From the NCBI GenBank assembly GCA_014378195.1, contig JACMOC010000084.1, positions 1 to 64,000 of the forward strand: a stretch of DNA of 64,000 nt, given 5' to 3'. Origin of the DNA: Oligoflexus sp. (GTDB lineage Bacteria > Bdellovibrionota_B > Oligoflexia > Oligoflexales > Oligoflexaceae). Positions 12,347 through 23,654 of the stretch are shown here, piece by piece; the first letter of the stretch is position 1, and the number at the start of each line of letters is the position of its first letter. The notes under the pieces were generated by a model, which was not told the DNA's origin, did no database searches, and was given only the letters and a program-made list of their open reading frames with translations. A program made the position numbers and the translations under genes.

Positions 12347-13333
12347 TTAAAGGCTGGAATTCAAGGTCACGCGATAGACGCCGTGGCCTTTAAAATGATC
12401 GACGATACGCTTGTGATGCTCATCACAATGATTGGGGTCGAGAAGGCCTATGATCATGCCGCCTCCGCCCGCGCCCGTTGATTTTACGGCCAAAGCGCCC
12501 AAGGCCCGTGTTTGAATAATCATATCGAATAAATTTGCAGGTACTACCCCGGCATCTTCCAAAAGGTGTCCAGCTTCGTTCATGCTTGCTGCTAAGCCGA
12601 GTGTGTTGCCCGATTGCAGGCTTTGATAGGCTGCGAGTGAAAGTTGATCAAAGCGATCAATGTGGCTATCGCCGTTTGCGCCTGTAAAATAAGGCTGAGC
12701 TATTCTTATCATCGACATGGTCGAGGCGCGAATATTACTGTCAATCAATACAAACTCAAAGGATTGCCCGGCGTCGATCGAAATCATTTTGATCTCGCGT
12801 TTTTTCGCGAACAACACCGGTTTCTCAAAAGCAACTACGGCCGTGTCGAGTCCCGAAGGATTCCCATGAAAGCTTTTTTCGAGTTCATTCGCGAACGTGG
12901 CAAGCTGCGTGTTGCTCAGTGTGATCGCATGCGATTGGGAAAGGGCCCGCAAGACGGCCACACAAAGTGTTGCGGACGAACCGAGACCGGCACCGATTGG
13001 CAGAGATGAATGTGTCTCGCCGTCGAGCGAAAAAGCATCGATACCAAGCAGCTGCATCGCTTTGATAACGACCGCTTGCAAGCGTGGCGAGCCCTCATGG
13101 CCCGCTAATTTTAGATGAACTTCCGGGGCATGACCATTACGCGAAGGTTTGGGTGTCATATGAAACCGGAACCGCATCTGATGCAGAGGAATCGCTACTG
13201 CATGTGCTCCGTATACAACCGCATGTTCGCCTACGATAATCGCTTTGCCACAAGCCGTTGTTTCTATGGAAGGAACAATCAGCTTGGATGTTCGAAAGTC
13301 CGGATATTGAGTTTCGCTTTCTCTATCTTTCAA
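12347..13333 (-). CDS. mvaK1: Mevalonate kinase
   Basis: GHMP-family kinase phosphorylating mevalonate to 5-phosphomevalonate. The 328-residue protein has the family motifs in order: substrate motif GEHAVVYGAHAVAIPL, ATP-binding PIGAGLGSSATLCVAV, and the C-terminal motif KSTGAGGGGMIIGL. The start appears to be a TTG at 13333, overlapping the mvaD stop as TTGA, with GAGAGG six bases upstream. It is last of four mevalonate genes and is followed by a terminator. An in-frame later start cannot be excluded, but the coupling pattern of the operon favours this one. Confidence 0.93.
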   Translation of the reverse strand: MKDRESETQYPDFRTSKLIVPSIETTACGKAIIVGEHAVVYGAHAVAIPLHQMRFRFHMTPKPSRNGHAPEVHLKLAGHEGSPRLQAVVIKAMQLLGIDAFSLDGETHSSLPIGAGLGSSATLCVAVLRALSQSHAITLSNTQLATFANELEKSFHGNPSGLDTAVVAFEKPVLFAKKREIKMISIDAGQSFEFVLIDSNIRASTMSMIRIAQPYFTGANGDSHIDRFDQLSLAAYQSLQSGNTLGLAASMNEAGHLLEDAGVVPANLFDMIIQTRALGALAVKSTGAGGGGMIIGLLDPNHCDEHHKRIVDHFKGHGVYRVTLNSSL

Positions 13334-14349
13334 TTCAAACCTCTCTCAAGTCTTGGGCCTTCTCCGACTCGATCCTGCAGCAGCTGGAGGGTTGGATAGT
13401 GTTCAGCAGTCCATGTGGTAAGCGCACTTGTCTCGGAGGCTTCATGGATGATGTGAACATTCGGTCCGGCATCGATAGTAAAATAGGCTTCAAAAAGCCC
13501 ATCCTGACGAGCCCGGCGAAAGGCAGCAATGAAGGCAACAGCTTCTGTCGTCAGATAAAACTGAGGCGGCCTTGTGGTCATCATCACAGCATGCATTTCC
13601 AGGGCTTCAGTTTCGAGTAGTGGCCCCAGTGTGGCAATCGATTGGGAGTGCACGGCTTTCAGCATGGCGTTCATTCGCTCAGGAGCACCAGCCACACGTG
13701 GCTCGAACAGGATACTGCTCCAGGCATCGGCGTGAGCTGCTGTTGAACTTTTTGATTTTTCGCTGTGAGAAAAAAGCGCGACCGTATCGTGGAGGGGCCA
13801 ATGATTTGCATCGTAGAGCCCGATAATTTTTTGTTTGTCGGCATGGGTGCCGGCCTGCCACTGCACGAAACCCCCGAACAGCGAACGTCCGGCGCTGCCT
13901 GAACCCATTCGTGCAAAGTGTGCAAGGCTTTCGCGGGAAAAGCCTTTTTCGCTCAACTCCGAGAAACTTCCTGATTCCGTCCAGCATGCGAGAGCGGCAA
14001 TCGTAAGCGCCGCAAGCCCACTGGCGCTGCTCGCTATGCCCGCGCCGGTCGGGAAGGAGTTGGTGCTTGAAAGAGAGAGCTTTTCTTGAAAGCCGCAGAT
14101 CTCAGAAAGGTAATCCAGATGTTTATAAACTTTGTGAAAGCTTCCATGATCGCGCGGCAAGACTTCGCCCTGGAATTGAAAACGATGATCCTCGGTATCA
14201 TGGCGATAAGCCGTCGTCCGGCTTGCCAGCTGATTGAGAGTCATCGACAGAGAGTCGTTCGCAGGCCACTGAAGCAACGGATCCTTCTTTCCCCAGTACT
14301 TGAGGAAAGCGATATTGCTTGGAGCGCTGACGCTATAAATGTCGGTCAT
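13330..14349 (-). CDS. mvaD: Diphosphomevalonate decarboxylase
   Basis: Converts 5-diphosphomevalonate to isopentenyl diphosphate with ATP and loss of CO2. The 339-residue product starts with the family signature SAPSNIAFLKYWGKKD, carries the substrate segment NDSLSMTLNQL, the phosphate loop FPTGAGIASSASGLAAL, GSGSAGRSLFGGFVQW and the late TIDAGPNVHII. Start chosen at ATG 14349, which overlaps the mvaK2 stop as ATGA and has GGAAGG upstream. The six extra residues from an upstream TTG would include that Shine-Dalgarno. Confidence 0.96.
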   Translation of the reverse strand: MTDIYSVSAPSNIAFLKYWGKKDPLLQWPANDSLSMTLNQLASRTTAYRHDTEDHRFQFQGEVLPRDHGSFHKVYKHLDYLSEICGFQEKLSLSSTNSFPTGAGIASSASGLAALTIAALACWTESGSFSELSEKGFSRESLAHFARMGSGSAGRSLFGGFVQWQAGTHADKQKIIGLYDANHWPLHDTVALFSHSEKSKSSTAAHADAWSSILFEPRVAGAPERMNAMLKAVHSQSIATLGPLLETEALEMHAVMMTTRPPQFYLTTEAVAFIAAFRRARQDGLFEAYFTIDAGPNVHIIHEASETSALTTWTAEHYPTLQLLQDRVGEGPRLERGLN

Positions 14350-15341
14350 AAGCCGAAGTCCTTCCAACTGACGAGGCTACCCTGAGTTGACCACGAGCTT
14401 TTCAAACGAGACCAGCCTCGATTTTTTAAGGCCTGGTCAGGTTCTGCCAGTAGGGAGCGCGGGCCGATCAGCAGTATCGCATCCTCACCGCCGGCACCGG
14501 TCGTTTTAAAGGTCCAAGATCGATCAAATCCACTGAGTTGTGCAAGCGATTTGTCGAGTGCTTGCGGATAAAAAGGCGCGCTTGCAAAAAGAGTTCGGTG
14601 GGCACGGATCGTATTGAGAATAGTCTCAGCATTTTGACTGAGTATAGCTTCGATCAGGTGCTCAGTTTTTAGGGTGAGGTCGGGCCACATATGGTGCTCA
14701 TCGAGCCAGGAACGCACGCTTCCTCCCACTTTTTTCGTAGGAGCACCCGCGCCGCCGACGTAGGGATGGACCCATTTGTTCAACCAGTCCATCGACAAAG
14801 ATCGAACAACGCCAGGCCACCTCTCGTAATCGGCAGTCCATTCTACAAAACCACCCTGCATTTGCGTTACGAGATCATAACCCGAAGCAAACCCTTGTTG
14901 CGCTTTTTGCAAACGCCACGCCGCACGGGCTGCATCCCATCTCTCGTCATCGCTAAGGTTTACGGTTTGCTTCGCAAAAGCGGCGAGGGCAAGGTGCGCA
15001 GCAAGGCGCACTGCGGACGAACTGCCGAGTCCTGCTTTGACGTCGAGATCGGATTGCACATGGATATGGGCTTTTGTCACCTGGTGCTGGCGAGCTGCGA
15101 ACTGAACGCTATCGAGTAGTGGTTCGTCCCTGGACGTAGATGAGGGGGATAGAGGCGCGGACCATAAATCCGAGTAAATCGCAAAATCGGAGGCAGGGGC
15201 AATCTCAAGTTTGAGGCGAGTCTCCACAGTTGCGGATAGGGTTCGTCCCCCTCGGAGTATAGCGTATTCACCAGCCAGTAAAATCTTCCCGGGGACACTG
15301 ACGTGTAGACTTCTTTTTGAAGGTGGCTCTCCGTGTTTCAT
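14346..15341 (-). CDS. mvaK2: Phosphomevalonate kinase (GHMP type)
   Basis: Phosphorylates 5-phosphomevalonate to 5-diphosphomevalonate. The 331-residue protein begins with VPGKILLAGEYAILRGG, has the ATP loop VKAGLGSSSAVRLAAH, a central segment QQGFASGYDLVTQMQGGFVEW typical of phosphomevalonate kinases, and the C-terminal KTTGAGGEDAILLIG. The ATG at 15341 overlaps the mvaA stop in TGATG; a TTG one codon earlier is also possible. It sits between mvaA and mvaD. Assignment as phosphomevalonate rather than another GHMP kinase rests on the operon and the central motif. Confidence 0.92.
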   Translation of the reverse strand: MKHGEPPSKRSLHVSVPGKILLAGEYAILRGGRTLSATVETRLKLEIAPASDFAIYSDLWSAPLSPSSTSRDEPLLDSVQFAARQHQVTKAHIHVQSDLDVKAGLGSSSAVRLAAHLALAAFAKQTVNLSDDERWDAARAAWRLQKAQQGFASGYDLVTQMQGGFVEWTADYERWPGVVRSLSMDWLNKWVHPYVGGAGAPTKKVGGSVRSWLDEHHMWPDLTLKTEHLIEAILSQNAETILNTIRAHRTLFASAPFYPQALDKSLAQLSGFDRSWTFKTTGAGGEDAILLIGPRSLLAEPDQALKNRGWSRLKSSWSTQGSLVSWKDFGL

Positions 15342-16600
15342 CAATGTCTATCTCGTTGGGCGGCCAGACGCAGATTGCCTTCATGCAAGCTCATATGACC
15401 TCGCTGTATACCTTCGGAAGCTAACGCGCGAAGCGCTGATAGATTCTGAGCCAGACCTACCGACACGATAATCTCGGCAAGAGCTTGCGCATTGGGACTG
15501 CCGAGCAGCTTTAAGGCAGCCTGGGCTGTTGGATGAAGCGTAGTTACGCCACCCACTGTGCCCACGGCCATTGGCAATTCGATTTCGCCTTCCAGATCAC
15601 CCTCTGCGTTTTTCGACCAATGTGTCATCGGTTGATAAACACCTGAGCGGCAGGAATAGGCATGAGCGCCCGCTTCAACGGCCCGCCAGTCATTGCCGGT
15701 CGCTATCACAACAGGATCGATACCGTTCATCACACCCTTGTTGTGGGTCGTCGCGCGATAGACGTCATGCGCTGCAAAAAGGTAGGCATTAACTATGCGC
15801 TCCACTACTTCTGGGCCCGAGAATTCTTGGTTGCTTAACGCTTCCTTGGGAACGCGGCACCGTGCACGCGCCATACGTTTGTCGCAAAGGTTGGTGAGGA
15901 TGCGGAGGCCCATTTCACAGGGAATGAGCTCGGCTATACGTTTGCTGAGTTTTTCGCAAATCGTATTGATAAGGTTGGCTCCCATCGCATCACGCGTATC
16001 GATGTCGACGTAAATGACAAGAGAAGAGATCGCATCGATAAATCGCCAGCGGATGTCACGCACACCGCCACCACGCGCGAGTAGTCTTTGCTGCCCGTCA
16101 TGCGCGTGCGCAATCAGTTCTTCGGTGTGTTCGGTAAGGATCTTGTCGTAATCGAGGTCTTTAAGGGGATAGAGCTGGATCTGCCCTGTCCCGATTGGAG
16201 CGGTGCTTGATGTGATGAAACCGCCACCGAGTCGGGCGAGTTTTGCGCCATGACTTGCGGCAGCCAACACGCTGGTTTCCTCAACGGCCATAGGTACAAG
16301 GACATCGCGACCGTTGATATGGAAATTGGTGGCGACACCCAAAGGCAAAGCCATTGTTCCGATACCGTTCTCAATAAAAACATTCACAAGCTCAGCGTTG
16401 AGCGTGGAGAAGTCTCCAAAGCTTTCGCTCGTGCTGGATTGCTTTGGATCTATCTGCGCCATATCTTGAATAATTTCACGCCGTTGACTGATCCCAAGCT
16501 CATAAAAGCCGGGCAGTCGCGAACTGAATCGTAGGGCCGGAGAATCGCTGCGCTGTGGAAAGTGAGTACTCGTGTCGCCGGTCATATCTTTTTCACTCAT
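15341..16600 (-). CDS. mvaA: Hydroxymethylglutaryl-CoA reductase, class II
   Basis: Reduces HMG-CoA to mevalonate, the committed pathway step, or runs in reverse in degraders. The 419-residue protein has no membrane domain and matches the bacterial class II form. It carries ENGIGTMALPLGVATNF, the catalytic Glu segment MAVEETSVLAAASHGAKLAR, the nucleotide-binding DAMGANLIN, the Lys/Asp region ATGNDWRAVEAGAHA and the late GHMSLHEGN with the likely catalytic His. Forward, biosynthetic use is inferred from three kinases/decarboxylase genes coupled behind it. The ATG at 16600 is preferred; a GTG three codons upstream is possible. Confidence 0.95.
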   Translation of the reverse strand: MSEKDMTGDTSTHFPQRSDSPALRFSSRLPGFYELGISQRREIIQDMAQIDPKQSSTSESFGDFSTLNAELVNVFIENGIGTMALPLGVATNFHINGRDVLVPMAVEETSVLAAASHGAKLARLGGGFITSSTAPIGTGQIQLYPLKDLDYDKILTEHTEELIAHAHDGQQRLLARGGGVRDIRWRFIDAISSLVIYVDIDTRDAMGANLINTICEKLSKRIAELIPCEMGLRILTNLCDKRMARARCRVPKEALSNQEFSGPEVVERIVNAYLFAAHDVYRATTHNKGVMNGIDPVVIATGNDWRAVEAGAHAYSCRSGVYQPMTHWSKNAEGDLEGEIELPMAVGTVGGVTTLHPTAQAALKLLGSPNAQALAEIIVSVGLAQNLSALRALASEGIQRGHMSLHEGNLRLAAQRDRH

Positions 16601-16936
16601 GTTGGGCACTTAACGGTCTTTACAGCGAGCTTAGAATGCCTCAATCCGTGGGCGAGTTCAAGCTTTCTTGAACAAAGGGGAGGAAGAGTTCCTCAAGCAT
16701 CGATTGCGACCATGATTCAAGGATTTTGCCGCTGATAAAGCTGGGGTCAGCCATGTTGAAAAGACTGGTTTGTGCGCTGGCTTGCCTGCATTTGACGAAA
16801 AGACGGTCAGTGCCTGAACTCTGGTCGGTAAATCGCTCTGTAATGATTTGAATTTATTTGATAAAATCTGGGGCACCCCTGGCTTGATTCCTGCAGCGTA
16901 AGCACTATGTAGCAAGGTTTACTCATTGAGGTCCCT
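16601..16936. other. Intergenic region between mvaA and a divergent lipoprotein gene
   Basis: 336 bases with no supported gene; an 85-codon minus frame here (16658-16915) has no family features. The region holds the promoter area of the mevalonate operon and of the divergent YceI-like lipoprotein. The clearest element is the palindrome listed separately at 16656-16673. The plus-strand gene has GAGG before its ATG. Confidence 0.5.
16656..16673 (-). promoter_or_regulatory. Palindrome overlapping a possible mvaA promoter
   Basis: GTTCAAG-CTTT-CTTGAAC is a perfect seven-base inverted repeat ending 56 bases upstream of the mvaA ATG. On the minus strand TTGAAC in its downstream arm could serve as a -35 with a weak CATTCT -10 17 bases later. 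A site overlapping the -35 is where a repressor would act. Operator function is inference; no regulator gene adjoins it. Confidence 0.4.
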
Positions 16937-17623
16937 ATGAAACTCTATCTGTTGAGTCTCATTCTCATCCTAAGTTCTTGTAAACAATACGTTCCGCCAG
17001 GTGCGATCGCGAGCTCGACGAAAAGCACGACGTCTCTGGCTACGAGCAGGTGTGATAGTAAAAATGTTGTATTTGCTTTGCAGGAAGCGTCTAGTGTCGC
17101 CTGGTCTGTTGCCCAGATCGATACCAATGCCAAAGGCCCCCTGAGCTCCAAAAATCCGGCGAGCGGACAAATTTCTCTCGTTAAGGGTCAGCTCAATCAG
17201 GCCAAAGGTCTTATCACTTTTAATATTGGAAGCACCTCAACGGGGGACCCGATTCGTGATCGATTGCTTCAGGAAGTGCTTTTCGGGATGAGCACACTCA
17301 ATCCGTTCCGTGTGAATATCAACCGGCTGATAGGCTCCTCGACCTCGGTCGCGACCGGCGCTACGGTTACGATGCAAGCCGACGGAACCCTGGAACTTGG
17401 TGGTCGCAAATCGTCATTGCTGTTTCCTATTTCGATCACGGAATCAGGCGGAATTTACCTTTTGAAAGGGACGATAGTCGTCAACGCGCGGGATACCCGC
17501 CCTGCGCTCAACACTATTTCGCTTAACGACAAATTTCAAACGATCGAAACGACTTTGAACTCCAAGTTGGGTTCAACATTAACGCTGACTTTCGATCTTC
17601 ATATGAAAAACACCTGCACATGA
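16937..17623 (+). CDS. YceI-like lipoprotein
   Basis: 228-residue envelope lipoprotein with lipobox LILSSC (Cys about residue 15) and GAGG ahead of the ATG. The mature part resembles YceI proteins, which form a lipocalin-like barrel that can hold long isoprenoid lipids. It begins with a VAWSVAQIDTNAKGPL strand and glycine-rich turn, has the IRDRLLQEVLFG stretch where YceI proteins have RDxHL-type residues, and ends in a string of beta strands. The match is by pattern only. Its position between the isomerase and mvaA genes fits a link with polyprenyl lipids, but it is on the opposite strand. Confidence 0.6.
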   Translation: MKLYLLSLILILSSCKQYVPPGAIASSTKSTTSLATSRCDSKNVVFALQEASSVAWSVAQIDTNAKGPLSSKNPASGQISLVKGQLNQAKGLITFNIGSTSTGDPIRDRLLQEVLFGMSTLNPFRVNINRLIGSSTSVATGATVTMQADGTLELGGRKSSLLFPISITESGGIYLLKGTIVVNARDTRPALNTISLNDKFQTIETTLNSKLGSTLTLTFDLHMKNTCT

Positions 17624-17649
17624 GTTCAAAAAGCCGTCGCCTGACAACT

Positions 17650-18969
17650 TCAGCGATGGGTTGGTATCAATCGCTCGAAGTTTGACTCGTAAGGTCGGCC
17701 GCGAATGATCTTGGTTTTGAGATCGTCAAGTGTGCGGGCGCCACTCGCCAGCATAGTCAAACGAAGTCCCCTCATAAAGCCTTCAATCGTATCCTCGACC
17801 GCTTCTTCACTCTGTAACGCCGCTTTTAATAGTGGCAATCCAATGCCTGCAAATTGAGCGCCGAGAGCACAGGCTTTGGCGACTGTCAGGCCGTCCCGCA
17901 CTCCGCCGGTGGCGATAAGTGGAAATTGGGGCAAAGCTTCACGCACGGCTGTCAAACTATAGGCTGTAGGAATGCCCCAATTTCTAAAGCTTAAGCCGAG
18001 CTGACTCACGATCGGCGAAGAGCTTCTCAAGCCTTCGATATGAGCCCACGAAGTGCCTCCGGCCCCTCCGATATCTATCGCCGAAACACCGCATTCCTGT
18101 AGCATGAGGGCCGAGGACGGCGAGATTCCGGAACCAACTTCCTTGGCGATCACAGGGACATTGAGTCTTTTGCAAATCGTCTCAAGGCCCTTCATGATGC
18201 CGGCAAGATTGCGGTCGCCTTCCACTTGAATATGTTCTTGAACCACATTGAAATGAATAGCCAAAGCATCTGCCCTGATCATATCCACTGCGCGGGCGCA
18301 GCGGTCGAGGGCATCGTGATCGGCAAGTTGGGCGATACCGATGTTGCCAATCAAAAACACGTCGGGGGCCGTGTCCTTAACGGAAAAAATAGGAGCGTAT
18401 TCTGCGTTATCCAGAGCGATACGCTGAGATCCGACACCCATTGGTATTTGGTACTTCTGCGCTGCCAGAGCAAGGCGTTTATTGATTTCGATCCCTTTTT
18501 GAATCCCGCCCGTCATCCCCGTGATGAGTATCGGCAAGGCAAATGTCCGGCCTAAAAATTTGACCCGCGTGTCGATCTCCGAGTGGTCGAAAAGGGGCAG
18601 GGCTTCGGGCAGGAAGGAAAGTTCGCCGAACCCGGTGAAGCGGTCTTCTGCTTCCACATCCTGAGACCGACAGATTTCGATATGCTGGTCTTTTCGAATC
18701 TGACCAAGCAGTTCTTGAAGTGTCTGACGTACTTCGGGAGCGATTATAAAGTGAAAGGGATAGAGCTCGGTTTCGAGTCGCCCTTTGAAATGAAAATTCT
18801 GGTCGTTTTGCAAAGAAACGGTAATATGGGTCAGACGGACAGAAAAGCTTTTCTCCCGCAAAGCACTTTCGAGGATGAGTCGATCGGGAGCGCAGGCCGT
18901 CACAAGTCCTGCGTGTCCTTGTCCGGCAATCCAGGGTAAAGCTGGGCTAAGTTTGATGAATTCGGCCAT
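17650..18969 (-). CDS. fni: Type 2 isopentenyl-diphosphate isomerase with N-terminal extension
   Basis: FMN- and NAD(P)H-dependent enzyme interconverting IPP and DMAPP. From about residue 92 the protein follows the type 2 family: RKDQHIEIC, FLPEALPLF, LPILITGMTGGI, MGVGSQRIAL, HFNVVQEHIQVEGD and later KEVGSGIS, DIGGAGGTSWAHIE and ATGGVRDGLTVAKA. The family is normally ~340-350 residues. Here ~90 residues precede it, mixed alpha/beta with no domain I recognise. Start set at ATG 18969; ATG 19011 would add 14 more. It supplies DMAPP for the pathway encoded just downstream on the same strand, beyond one inverted gene. Confidence 0.93.
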   Translation of the reverse strand: MAEFIKLSPALPWIAGQGHAGLVTACAPDRLILESALREKSFSVRLTHITVSLQNDQNFHFKGRLETELYPFHFIIAPEVRQTLQELLGQIRKDQHIEICRSQDVEAEDRFTGFGELSFLPEALPLFDHSEIDTRVKFLGRTFALPILITGMTGGIQKGIEINKRLALAAQKYQIPMGVGSQRIALDNAEYAPIFSVKDTAPDVFLIGNIGIAQLADHDALDRCARAVDMIRADALAIHFNVVQEHIQVEGDRNLAGIMKGLETICKRLNVPVIAKEVGSGISPSSALMLQECGVSAIDIGGAGGTSWAHIEGLRSSSPIVSQLGLSFRNWGIPTAYSLTAVREALPQFPLIATGGVRDGLTVAKACALGAQFAGIGLPLLKAALQSEEAVEDTIEGFMRGLRLTMLASGARTLDDLKTKIIRGRPYESNFERLIPTHR

Positions 18970-19071
18970 GATGCTCGATCCTTTCTTCGCGTCAGAGTAT
19001 GGGTTTAGCATGGGACTTCAAAAAAAGGCGAGTCTTTTGGACAAGCCATGTCATGAGCAAAGGAGTTTTTT

Positions 19072-19392: not shown

Positions 19393-20238
19393 ATGCCGAA
19401 GCTCCTCATCGCCGGCGCGGGCTACCTTGGACTCGCTTTAGCCGAGAGTCTCCGCGGATCTGATACCAAATGTTATCTTGCGCGCCGTTCGCCGCTCGAG
19501 GTCGAGGGATGCATCACCGTCGCCTGCGATTTTACGGATCCTTCGACCCTGGTTCAGCTCCCCATGGTCGAAAGCATTTATTACGCCGTCGCTGCCGACA
19601 GCCGCAGTGAGGAGGCTTATGAAAAAGCCTATTTTATAGGCCTGCAAAACCTCATTCACCATTATCAGCAGCGTGGCCTTGCGCCTCGTTTTTATCTCAG
19701 TTCAACAACGTCTGTGTATGCCGCCTCCAACGGAGAACGGGTGAGCGAAAACGAACGGAACCTTGTTTCCGCAACGCCAAGCCGACATATGGTGCGAGGG
19801 GAGCAGCTTCTCCTTCAATCCGGTTTTCAGGGTGCTATTTTACGATATGGCGGAATCTACGGGCCGGAGCGCACGGGTATGCTGAGACGTGTCCGCGATA
19901 AATTAGAAGTTTTGGCGCCAAACGCGCCCCAATATACCAACCGTATTCATCGGGACGACGCGGTAGGCATCGCGAAATTTCTTATGGGAAAACCGACCGA
20001 CGGGATGATGATACTGAATGCGGTCGATCAAGAGGCTTCGCTGCGTGATGATGTCATACGCTATGTGCTGAAAGCACTCCAGATGAAGGAGGATGATTAT
20101 CCTTTCGATCTGACCCAGGTCTCTGCATCGCATAAGAGAGTTGATTCAACGAAGCTTCAGTCCCTGGGTTATCGCTATATATTTCCAAGTTATCGCGAAG
20201 GTTATGCTTCGCTCCTACAGCTCGTTAAGGAGTCGTAA
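19393..20238 (+). CDS. NAD(P)-dependent epimerase/dehydratase, YeeZ-like SDR
   Basis: 281-residue extended/atypical short-chain dehydrogenase. The N-terminal Rossmann motif is AGAGYLGLALAESL. The active-site region reads YLSSTTSVYAASNGE, with the expected Tyr in SVYA, and RYGGIYGPER matches the substrate-side loop of UDP-sugar-type epimerases and YeeZ proteins. The substrate is not predictable. It starts right after the stop of the small secreted protein gene and overlaps the end of the convergent lipoprotein gene by 14 bases. Confidence 0.85.
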   Translation: MPKLLIAGAGYLGLALAESLRGSDTKCYLARRSPLEVEGCITVACDFTDPSTLVQLPMVESIYYAVAADSRSEEAYEKAYFIGLQNLIHHYQQRGLAPRFYLSSTTSVYAASNGERVSENERNLVSATPSRHMVRGEQLLLQSGFQGAILRYGGIYGPERTGMLRRVRDKLEVLAPNAPQYTNRIHRDDAVGIAKFLMGKPTDGMMILNAVDQEASLRDDVIRYVLKALQMKEDDYPFDLTQVSASHKRVDSTKLQSLGYRYIFPSYREGYASLLQLVKES

Positions 20239-20761
20239 GAGGAATAGGCTCGGGAGTTGTCACCGACGTCCCAGGATCCGAGGGTACGGCCGAAACGGGC
20301 GCTGCGCCTGCACAAAGAGTCATTTTGAGATCATTGAAGCCGCTTTTTGCTACAAACTCCGTACTCGTTTTGCACGTTACATTGGAATACGTTGCAACCT
20401 CACCCGCAAAAGTCTGGACGATTAAACTGTAGGTCTTGCCGGGCACTAGATCCATCGTATCACCCAAGGTGTAATCATAAATGTCTTGGGTCGCTTCGCC
20501 ACTCGAACTCAGAGTGAGTGCGATTCTGTCGTAAGCCTTTGGATTTGCTGGGAAAGTGAGGTCGTTGACACGGAGTAGAGTCGCCTTTGACTCGTCAGTG
20601 CCACGAACGGCCGCGGCTTTTGCGGAGGCAGTGGCGACGGGCGGCGGCGTAATGGGAACTTCAGCTACATCGACAGTTGTACGACGCGTTTTGCAGGCGA
20701 TGACTGTGAAAGACGAGGAGACCGTGAGCGCAAGCGTGAATGAGATCTTAAGGAGTTGCAT
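20225..20761 (-). CDS. Lipoprotein of unknown function (downstream of a pair)
   Basis: 178-residue exported protein with lipobox FTVIAC. The ATG at 20761 has GGAG upstream and begins 14 bases inside the preceding lipoprotein gene, so translation is coupled. After the anchor comes a Pro/Ala-rich spacer (TPPPVATASAKAAAV), then a beta-sandwich-like region (LLRVNDLTFPANPKAYDRIAL...YDYTLGDTMDLVPGKTYSL) with two cysteines, and a Pro/Thr-rich tail. No family recognised. Its end overlaps the epimerase gene by 14 bases. Confidence 0.75.
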   Translation of the reverse strand: MQLLKISFTLALTVSSSFTVIACKTRRTTVDVAEVPITPPPVATASAKAAAVRGTDESKATLLRVNDLTFPANPKAYDRIALTLSSSGEATQDIYDYTLGDTMDLVPGKTYSLIVQTFAGEVATYSNVTCKTSTEFVAKSGFNDLKMTLCAGAAPVSAVPSDPGTSVTTPEPIPLTTP

Positions 20762-21236
20762 CTTGGGCTCCACATTTTACGGTAAAAACAGCCATAAGGG
20801 TATCAAGGGCAGGATTGCCGAGATCATTGTTCGGACGACGAAATCTCATCTTCTCACTCATCTCTGAGACCAGGATCTCTTCGCCATTCTTATAAGCGAA
20901 GTATTGGATCGAGGGTATCTGCGCACGAAAAATAAATGCGTCCGCTAAGGCTTGGTTCTTAATGGTCGTAATAGCTGTTTCGACCACAGAGAGGTTCGTG
21001 ACATCACTCTTAAGAATGACACATTCCGATATGCGGTTCTCAGGAGAACTCTGCGATAAGGCTCCCACGGATTTCCGAAGGATGCGATCAGAATTGCCTG
21101 CCCCTCCCGCTCCGGTGAGTGTTACGGCCGGAGGTGCTGCTTTGGTGTCGGGTTCACCGGATGTCCGGCATCCCATAAATGTCGTTAGGGTAACGAGTGT
21201 GGAGAGTACTATAGAAAAAAGTCGATGAATCCGCAT
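20748..21236 (-). CDS. Lipoprotein of unknown function (upstream of a pair)
   Basis: 162-residue exported protein. ATG 21236 is preceded by GGGGAGG, which rules out the upstream frame extension to 21287. The signal peptide ends in lipobox TFMGC. The mature part has a Gly/Ala-rich spacer (TLTGAGGAGNSDRIL) then a domain with two cysteines (SECVIL and VKCGA) at its edges. It overlaps the downstream lipoprotein gene by 14 bases. The two share the plan anchor, flexible spacer, small disulfide domain and probably act in one complex. Confidence 0.75.
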   Translation of the reverse strand: MRIHRLFSIVLSTLVTLTTFMGCRTSGEPDTKAAPPAVTLTGAGGAGNSDRILRKSVGALSQSSPENRISECVILKSDVTNLSVVETAITTIKNQALADAFIFRAQIPSIQYFAYKNGEEILVSEMSEKMRFRRPNNDLGNPALDTLMAVFTVKCGAQDATP

Positions 21237-21334
21237 AAGACCTCCCCCTGGCAAAGTCCCTTCGATTTTAACACAGAAAATGTCCATCGTAGAACCTGAT
21301 CTGGCCTGTTAAATCATGACATCGGAGGCTTGTC

Positions 21335-21703
21335 ATGCTTTTGCGACTTTATTTACCAGTCCTTGTGCTGATTCTTCTTAAGAATATTTCTGTTTTGGAT
21401 AGAGGCGCGGACGCGCTGATGCAGGGGTTTCAAACGGACTATCAAAACCTGCTGTGTGCCCGTGCTGACGTTTACCAGCGCAATCTAGCGGATAGTTGGC
21501 AGTTTCTAGAGGCGCGTTATCCCTATCTCAACGAGAGGGCGATGCTCCTGCCCGAAGTGGCGCAGGAGGACTGTTCCGAGGCCCACTTTGCGGTCTATCG
21601 CGAAGTGAATCCGAAGCTCCCCCTGATCTACCCGAACTGGTTTGGAATTGAGACCCAGCCGGGATCCGACGGGTCACAAGGAACAAAAAACGATGAATAC
21701 TGA
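21335..21703 (+). CDS. Small membrane-anchored protein of the secretin cluster (first)
   Basis: Unrecognised 122-residue protein. One N-terminal hydrophobic segment (LLRLYLPVLVLILL) without a cleavage site is followed by a helical stretch (DALMQGFQTDYQNLLC) and a mostly polar domain with two cysteines. The plan, one TM helix then an extracytoplasmic domain, is that of minor pilins or TadE-like proteins, but no TadE motif is present. It opens a run of four overlapping plus-strand genes ending in a secretin-like protein. Confidence 0.6.
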   Translation: MLLRLYLPVLVLILLKNISVLDRGADALMQGFQTDYQNLLCARADVYQRNLADSWQFLEARYPYLNERAMLLPEVAQEDCSEAHFAVYREVNPKLPLIYPNWFGIETQPGSDGSQGTKNDEY

Positions 21704-22010
21704 AGCCGGAGATGTGGATTTGATCCTCATGTTTTTCCTCGTGGCGAGTGTTCAGATCGTTCAGTTTTCGGTCCTCCATGCGATGGCGCTTGCGTGGCAA
21801 ACATCTTACCAAAGCCTCGAAACCGAACTCAATCAGGCTCAGGAGAATCCAGAGCCTACATTCCGAGCCTTTGGCCTAACCTTGAAAACGCCGCTGCCTC
21901 GCATCGACTACGGCGCTTACTACCAAAAAAACCGTGATGCGGAGGCCCTATGTATCATCGGACGCGAGAATTTATTACCAGCAGATTTCGCGCGCTTTCG
22001 TTGCGAATAA
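21693..22010 (+). CDS. Small membrane-anchored protein of the secretin cluster (second)
   Basis: Unrecognised 105-residue protein. The chosen ATG at 21693 lies 11 bases inside the previous gene and starts just before a hydrophobic helix (LILMFFLVASVQIVQF). The segment after it, HAMALAWQTSYQSLE, matches DALMQGFQTDYQNLL of the preceding product in position and pattern (A, QT.YQ.L), and both have a later FG(I/L) strand. They may therefore be diverged paralogs. TadE/TadG-like roles are possible but unproved. Confidence 0.6.
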   Translation: MNTEAGDVDLILMFFLVASVQIVQFSVLHAMALAWQTSYQSLETELNQAQENPEPTFRAFGLTLKTPLPRIDYGAYYQKNRDAEALCIIGRENLLPADFARFRCE

Positions 22011-22381
22011 AGTGTTTTAACCTGCCGCCGGTAGCGACCCACCTGGCTTGCTTTATTTTAGGAACCTTGCTTTTTGAGCCGGATACCTCGGGGCGGGTGC
22101 CGCCTGGGATACTCGTGCCGTGGACGCCGCAAAGGATCGAAGGTGGGATCGAACGCACCAAGGATTATAGCGTCGTGTCCAAAACCAAACATTGCCTGCT
22201 CCTCGACGTCCCGGTGAGGGTGTGGCCCGCCGAGGAAAAAAAGCTTTATGCCGTGCTTCCTAAAACCAAAGACATAGGCGCGGCGGTAGCCGCCTTACAC
22301 AAAATAGAGACTGTTTTGGTCGTGCAAACGGCTCAATCCTTGCCGCATTGTGAGATTTCGAATGCCATCGTTTATCCGTAA
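21950..22381 (+). CDS. CpaB/RcpC-like periplasmic protein (tentative)
   Basis: 143-residue protein. The ATG at 21950 lies 61 bases inside the previous gene; a TTG at 22001 would shorten the overlap and place the start near the hydrophobic segment THLACFILGTLLF. After this anchor come a Pro-rich stretch and an alternating domain (HCLLLDVPVRVWPAEEKKLYAVL...TVLVVQTAQ). CpaB/RcpC proteins have one TM helix followed by beta-rich domains and sit directly upstream of the secretin gene, which is the case here. Sequence support by itself is weak. Confidence 0.4.
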   Translation: MYHRTREFITSRFRALSLRIKCFNLPPVATHLACFILGTLLFEPDTSGRVPPGILVPWTPQRIEGGIERTKDYSVVSKTKHCLLLDVPVRVWPAEEKKLYAVLPKTKDIGAAVAALHKIETVLVVQTAQSLPHCEISNAIVYP

Positions 22382-23654
22382 GCTGAGTCTTTTCGCCTTG
22401 GTCTCGTTTTTTGGAATCGCACAAGCGGGGCAGACCGAGCCCAAAATCACGATGCAAGCAGGGCAGACTCAGGTTCTGGCCATTCCATCAGGCTCAACTC
22501 TCGATCTAAACCCACGAAAGATCATCGAAATCGAAGCTTTTGGCAAGGGCCAGGTGCGCCTTCTCGCTTTGAAATCGGGCATAGTCCTTCTTAAAGCTAA
22601 AAACTCAGAAACGGAGAAGACCTGGCTCATAGAAGTTTTGGGCCGGGATCAACAAAGCGATTGGCTACTTCGAAGTGAATGGCAAAGTTTCTTCTGCGCC
22701 CGAAGCGGAGTGCACTGTGATCTCGAAAACAAGGTGATTTCGGGCACGACAGATGATTTGAGTTGGTTTTACGAGGCGCGGGACACATGCAAAAAAAAGA
22801 TGCCGTGCTCGTGGCAGGTCCTACTCTCCGATGCAGCAGCCGCGAAAGCGAGTGTGAATCTCGGGCCTTTGCTTGCTCATTTTCCTTTTAAGTTGACGCC
22901 AGACGGCCAAATTCGTTTGGAAAGTTTTTGTGACGAAACAGACAAAAAGTCTCTGGAAAAGGTCGTGGCGAACCTGGCGGAGACCTACCATATCGCGCCA
23001 CAGATTAGTTGCGCTCTGAGAGCTCCCGACCTATGGGCCATCGATGTTCTGGTCACCGCTGAGAGAAAGGGGCAAGGCGAAATCTCAAATCCACTGCAAT
23101 GGGAGAAAATAGAAATCCCCGAGCGCCAACCGCTAAGAGCCACCCTTGCCGGCTTATCCCAGACTTCGGGCATGCGCATCCTAGCTCAGCCGGCGTTGAG
23201 TTTGAGTCTTGGAGGAACGGCGATCCTTCGCGATGGGCAGGAGATTCAGACTTTGGCCGTGCAAAAGGATACCGAAGAAATTTTATGGAAAACCTCTGGC
23301 TTTCGTCTCGAGCTGAAACTCATTGAAATCAAAGACGAAAAGGCGCGGGTGCAGATTCATATGAACCTGAGTCAACCGCAGGCGGGCCTCAGAACAATTG
23401 ATGCCAGCGAATTTGTGAGTGAACTGTGGCTTCCCTTATCCGTGTTGCAAAAGGTCGGGCGACTGGAGGCGACGCTCGATGGGAGCGAAACGCACAAGGT
23501 CCCCTGGCTCAGTGCTATCCCTTTTCTGGGTGTACTGTTTCGTTGGGACGGTGACACGCACGCCAAAAGCCAGGTCGATATTTTTCTTAGGATTCGTCCA
23601 GGTGCTCTGAACGAAGACTCGCCTGATACGGAGCATTCGCCCGAAACGGGATAA
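22362..23654 (+). CDS. Secretin-like outer-membrane protein (CpaC/RcpA type)
   Basis: 430-residue exported protein. ATG 22362 opens a signal peptide (LSLFALVSFFGIAQAG); a GTG four codons earlier is possible. Residues ~30-95 match the pilus-secretin N-domain (MQAGQTQVLAIPSG...IIEIEAFGKGQVRLLALKSG). The C-terminal ~190 residues carry secretin features: LGGTAILRDGQE, GFRLELKLIEIKDEKARVQIHM and the closing VPWLSAIPFLGVLFRW with VDIFLRIRPG. In Tad systems this multimer forms the outer-membrane gate. The gene overlaps its upstream neighbour by 20 bases and the convergent epmA gene by 68. No ATPase, platform or prepilin peptidase gene lies nearby. Confidence 0.8.
   Translation: MPSFIRKLSLFALVSFFGIAQAGQTEPKITMQAGQTQVLAIPSGSTLDLNPRKIIEIEAFGKGQVRLLALKSGIVLLKAKNSETEKTWLIEVLGRDQQSDWLLRSEWQSFFCARSGVHCDLENKVISGTTDDLSWFYEARDTCKKKMPCSWQVLLSDAAAAKASVNLGPLLAHFPFKLTPDGQIRLESFCDETDKKSLEKVVANLAETYHIAPQISCALRAPDLWAIDVLVTAERKGQGEISNPLQWEKIEIPERQPLRATLAGLSQTSGMRILAQPALSLSLGGTAILRDGQEIQTLAVQKDTEEILWKTSGFRLELKLIEIKDEKARVQIHMNLSQPQAGLRTIDASEFVSELWLPLSVLQKVGRLEATLDGSETHKVPWLSAIPFLGVLFRWDGDTHAKSQVDIFLRIRPGALNEDSPDTEHSPETG

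Follow-up and report, generated by a model that had tools for sequence, protein, structure and literature searches.

Our analysis of the window, the whole 64,000-nucleotide stretch of Oligoflexus sp. DNA, indicates that three small membrane proteins and a secretin, encoded by four overlapping genes here called A to D, form a module that is a core system across the order. A, B and C are three new protein families, and D and a short ATPase encoded on another contig belong to known families. In the reading that we favour, and to which we give about an even chance, A–D are the envelope-spanning core of a reduced, order-specific machine related to the Tad system, and its motor is the short CpaF/TadA-type ATPase encoded elsewhere. 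Among open-licence papers, no account of the A–D cluster was found. The genes, the parts of D and the ATPase are as follows.

21335-21703, plus strand: gene A, 122 aa
21693-22010, plus strand: gene B, 105 aa
21950-22381, plus strand: gene C, 143 aa
22362-23654, plus strand: gene D, secretin, 430 aa
N-terminus of D: signal-peptide-like sequence MPSFIRKLSLFALVSFFGIAQA
22434..22652, plus strand: N-domain of D, residues 25-97
22659..23006, plus strand: cysteine-containing middle domain of D, residues 100-215
23154..23591, plus strand: secretin beta-barrel domain of D (PF00263)
G000:C80:8081-8977, a contig other than that of A–D: short ATPase, 298 aa, two genes downstream of dprA

An earlier note on this DNA had described four overlapping plus-strand genes that end in a secretin, and this was confirmed: successive genes overlap by 11 bp (A/B), 61 bp (B/C) and 20 bp (C/D), and D matches PF00263 with 39 bits against a cut-off of 27.5. 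The 61-bp overlap is identical in two congeners, which supports the start of C at 21950. Codon comparison with two congeners gave pN/pS values of 0.42-0.55 for A–C and 0.26-0.31 for D, and therefore all four are protein-coding genes under purifying selection. Scans for promoters and terminators found nothing exceeding chance, and the cluster contains no small pilin gene. The host genome, a MAG, spans 4.66 Mb with 82% completeness. The earlier note had also stated that no ATPase, platform protein or prepilin peptidase lies nearby, and this was confirmed: neither PF00437 nor PF00482 matched on the contig carrying A–D, and the sole prepilin peptidase detected in the genome is on a different contig.

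The closest known kin of D, as supported by sequence comparison, are the CpaC/RcpA secretins of Tad pili. PF00263 was matched by 28 of the 29 members of the D family. A profile of the N-domain matched (E<1e-3) only CpaC-type secretins that adjoin CpaB/RcpC, and nothing significant was found for PilQ or GspD. The profile of whole D scored mostly 57-87 bits, in a few cases about 30, against CpaC-type secretins, and 26-29 bits against the genome's own GspD and PilQ. In both comparisons CpaC was a closer fit than PilQ or GspD, in agreement with the CpaC/RcpA-like assignment proposed before. Against PDB chains the secretin domain scored slightly higher with PilQ (75 bits) than with RcpA (62 bits), so the kinship with CpaC rests chiefly on the N-domain and whole-profile comparisons. 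No separate Pfam N-domain was detected in the 29 family members. The middle domain had no match among the other secretins tested, and it is missing in one genus (L169-L173).

A, B and C matched no Pfam or NCBIfam model, and their homologues (23-27 members each) had no consistent Pfam match and none to PilN/O/P or GspL/M/C. The AF2 model of A (pLDDT 88.6) has a single long N-terminal helix with a hydrophobic start (residues 2-61), followed by a small two-strand region; C41 and C80 are conserved (near-invariant), N50 is invariant, and the C-terminus carries the motif NP.LP..[YW]PNW. B has one TM helix and a periplasmic tail with the signature [LP]PR.D.GA...ALC...C. C also has one TM helix, with PP.ATHL.CF.LGTLL, and in its AF2 model (85.8) the helix is followed by a beta-rich periplasmic domain with five strands and a single helix; G38, C82 and C134 are invariant. 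Neither the A model nor the C model matched a PDB fold, including PilN/PilO/PilP, in a searched set from which the RcpC entry 9GZR may be absent. By eye, the order of strands and helix in C resembles that of CpaB/RcpC. This candidate identity was rejected, since profile–profile comparison with about 30 CpaB sequences gave no match (hhalign probability <1%). The earlier note regarded two of the small proteins as look-alikes with a common pattern, A....QT.YQ.L. The pattern is present in A and B of the window, except that A and QT are separated by five residues and not four. The resemblance did not hold beyond the window, since QT.YQ.L occurs in 0 of 22 relatives of each protein and the two profiles are unrelated (hhalign probability 2%); A and B were therefore rejected as paralogues.

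D was found in about 42 of the 43 genomes of the order in a search first with D itself and afterwards with a profile built from 29 members of its family; the clear exception, G042, is 66% complete. The C profile detected homologues in 37 of the 43 genomes of the order and in 0 of 15 genomes elsewhere in the class. At most loci, homologues of A, B and C lie directly upstream of D; those of A adjoin D in 26 of 38 D loci, and those of B in about 26 loci. D is relocated in four genomes (G009, G012, G020 and G024), in which C still lies together with A, and sometimes B, elsewhere in the genome. A–B–C therefore behave as a unit, and D is retained even when unlinked.

The short ATPase belongs to a family of about 300 aa that was detected in 39 of 43 genomes of the order; it was not found in G002, G023, G028 and G040, all of which have D. 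Its profile scored 188-198 bits against CpaF and 47-56 against PilB/PilT/GspE, the best matches in a PDB search were to CpaF, and the best NCBIfam model was of the TadA family, below cut-off. The short ATPases form one clade (support 98/99) and retain the motifs G.tg.GKt, lRlrpd..v.GE.r and T.H. Our data indicate that this is a CpaF-type ATPase of single origin, present order-wide, and it appears to be restricted to the order. In 22 of 30 short-ATPase loci dprA lies upstream on the same strand, directly adjacent in 9 and with a 4-bp overlap in G022, G009 and G008; of the 8 loci that lack dprA, four come from short contigs. In the host genome, dprA, a DUF494 (smg-like) gene and the ATPase form a conserved cluster (G000:C80:6353-8977, L042). 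The coupling of the ATPase to dprA looks new in its own right, and the place next to dprA could also be an inherited position alone.

A functional link between D and the short ATPase is likely from the covariation of their evolutionary rates. The ATPase and A–D never shared a locus among the loci read, and presence and absence have no power here because both are near-universal in the order. Controlling for the housekeeping neighbours of the ATPase, DprA and TsaD, the partial correlation with the ATPase was 0.79 for D, 0.66 for C and 0.47 for A. Controlling instead for the neighbours of D (speA, coaD or EpmA), that of D with the ATPase was 0.56-0.78, and with fast-evolving controls (a LysM protein and two lipoproteins) and a DEAD helicase it was 0.41-0.84. 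With the ATPase itself controlled, D gave -0.18 to 0.09 against speA, coaD, EpmA or DprA, and 0.32 against TsaD. The protein distances in this test are saturated, with medians of about 3 substitutions per site, and for this reason we grade the link as likely and not as proven.

This link bears on the first alternative, in which D and A–C would be a gated outer-membrane channel for import or export that works without a dedicated cytoplasmic motor, and the short ATPase serves another process. Such a stand-alone exporter is possible, if rather unlikely. The three inner-membrane periplasmic proteins beside the secretin could gate D, the locus itself contains no ATPase gene in the genomes read, and four D-bearing genomes have no detected short ATPase. 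However, the rate covariation of D with the ATPase exceeds that with every control gene, and both proteins are of Tad type and apparently restricted to the order.

Operons in which three small membrane-anchored proteins precede a secretin also encode PilNOPQ of type IVa pili, MshJKL of MSHA pili and HofNOPQ of competence. A–B–C–D share this layout, but A–C have no detectable sequence relationship to the counterparts, the N-domain of D is not of PilQ type, and no pilM-like gene precedes the cluster. The T2SS pair GspC/GspD is similar in that an inner-membrane protein with a periplasmic beta domain is encoded beside a secretin; it differs in that A–D have no GspE/F homologues nearby, and the genome's GspD is encoded separately on contig C20. 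It is improbable, in our judgement, that A–D are an auxiliary secretin module and second outer-membrane exit run by the T4P or T2SS with borrowed PilB/PilT/PilC or GspE/GspF. In favour of such a module, nearly every genome of the order has exactly two full-size T2SSF proteins, in the host those of the T4P and the T2SS, whose secretins the host also has, and in one genus (L066-L068) D is some 5 kb away from pilB/pilT/pilC-like genes. The CpaC-type N-domain of D, with no significant PilQ or GspD match, and the Pfam scans, in which A–C had no homology to PilN/O/P or GspL/M/C, argue against it.

With the Tad (Flp, type IVc) pilus the likenesses are a CpaC-type secretin with a matching N-domain, a CpaF-type ATPase in the host genome, and a gene for a TM-anchored periplasmic protein (C) immediately before D, as cpaB is before cpaC. 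The differences are that the host lacks TadB/TadC, TadE and RcpC, that its ATPase is unlinked and about 300 aa long whereas CpaF in related genomes has 480-580 aa, that none of A, B and C shows detectable homology to any Tad protein, and that the middle domain of D differs. In the host genome the T2SSF proteins are of PilC and GspF types only, with no TadB/TadC, and PF16976 (CpaB/RcpC) and PF07811 (TadE) are absent; we are therefore not dealing with a complete Tad system divided between two loci. Across the order, PF07811 was found in 3 of 41 genomes, a third T2SSF domain pair in five (G006, G014, G016, G025 and G039), and RcpC in G006, G014, G025, G039 and G041; the loci read from four of the RcpC genomes look like Tad. 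Genomes with an RcpC/Tad locus keep the A–D module too, and the Tad locus has its own CpaB. The module is therefore neither a remnant of Tad nor the missing half of a Tad locus. In G016 the third T2SSF domain pair occurs with no RcpC or TadE match, and it may be an additional PilC-like platform or a divergent Tad system. The CpaF proteins of the order's Tad loci have an extra N-terminal domain that is FHA-like by eye (L204:6237-7901, L206:5047-6798 and L207:4434-6188).

The earlier note had suggested a split Tad locus and a genome search for cpaF, tadB and tadC. This search did find a distant short CpaF-type ATPase, whose rate co-varies with that of D, but no TadB/TadC; TadE and RcpC are likewise lacking, and in relatives the Tad loci are separate. 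A true split Tad pilus, with TadB/TadC-like, pilin and prepilin peptidase genes that escaped detection through divergence or fall in an unassembled portion of the genome, could draw on the 82% completeness of the host genome. However, of 26 genomes with completeness of 90% or more and contamination of 5% or less, almost all lack a third T2SSF protein, and TadE is present in just three; the sensitivity of the T2SSF and TadE profiles is adequate because the same profiles match in relatives with Tad loci; we regard this reading as very unlikely. Least probable of all is that the module is what is left of an ancestral Tad locus in decay: a CpaC-type secretin and a CpaF-type ATPase are retained, and TadB/C, TadE and RcpC are gone in most genomes, but decay is largely refuted by the purifying selection on A, B, C and D and by the presence of a Tad locus alongside the module in five genomes (counted from RcpC, four loci read), and it also sits poorly with order-wide retention and with three conserved families that have no detected Tad counterpart.

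In the reduced Tad-related machine that we prefer, D would form an outer-membrane channel of CpaC type, and A, B and C, each with one helix in the inner membrane and reaching into the periplasm, would jointly bridge or align the inner membrane to D. By analogy, this job would make A–C the counterpart of RcpC (CpaB) in Tad and of PilN/O/P in T4P. RcpC of the Tad pilus is a dodecameric, TM-anchored conduit that touches the secretin (PDB 9GZR; PMC12307814). The short CpaF/TadA-type ATPase would power the machine. No TadB/TadC platform, pilin or prepilin peptidase gene was found at the module loci, so the machine would be filament-free or would borrow the T4P platform (PilC). If this is right, the machinery of type IV filaments can be reduced to a channel, a bridge and a motor and kept as the core equipment of a whole bacterial order. 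A, B and C also represent three new families whose role is directly testable.

For the substrate of the Tad-related machine we infer DNA, and uptake as its function. This is the most likely job because of the linkage of the ATPase to dprA, the presence of ComEC (39 of 41 genomes of the order) and a precedent for CpaF in Liberibacter, where DNA uptake requires it (PMC8513845). A candidate motor coupled to dprA together with ComEC resembles the competence machinery (ComEC, DprA and ComGA/PilT-like traffic ATPases), but the motor is of TadA/VirB11 type and not of PilB/PilT type, and no competence pseudopilus genes were identified. The full proposal, a pilus-free DNA-uptake machine that evolved once at the base of the order from Tad parts, with the CpaC-type channel D, a new three-protein bridge of A–C and a minimal CpaF motor coupled to DprA, is put forward tentatively and is, taken whole, unlikely. 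If DNA uptake is indeed the function, natural transformation would have a second solution, one made of Tad and not T4P parts.

Some neighbouring genes may be mentioned. Two small lipoprotein-like genes (window 20225-21287, minus strand) lie 5' of gene A and divergent from it; the pair is kept in most genomes of the same family despite other changes (L050:7176-8247, L052:6724-7754, L054:6269-7218 and L057:10475-11493), and its products are candidate pilotins for D. In several families of the order, an exported protein of ~715-880 aa, absent from the window, lies beside D between the module and coaD (L194:7201-9840, L221:3757-6159, L062:8155-10554 and L202:7426-9573); it has weak PKD/TPR matches and a C-terminus that is barrel-like by eye. 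Window positions 12347-19011 hold what by eye is a mevalonate-pathway cluster, with genes for mevalonate kinase, diphosphomevalonate decarboxylase, a further GHMP kinase, an HMG-CoA-reductase-like protein and a type 2 IPP isomerase-like protein.
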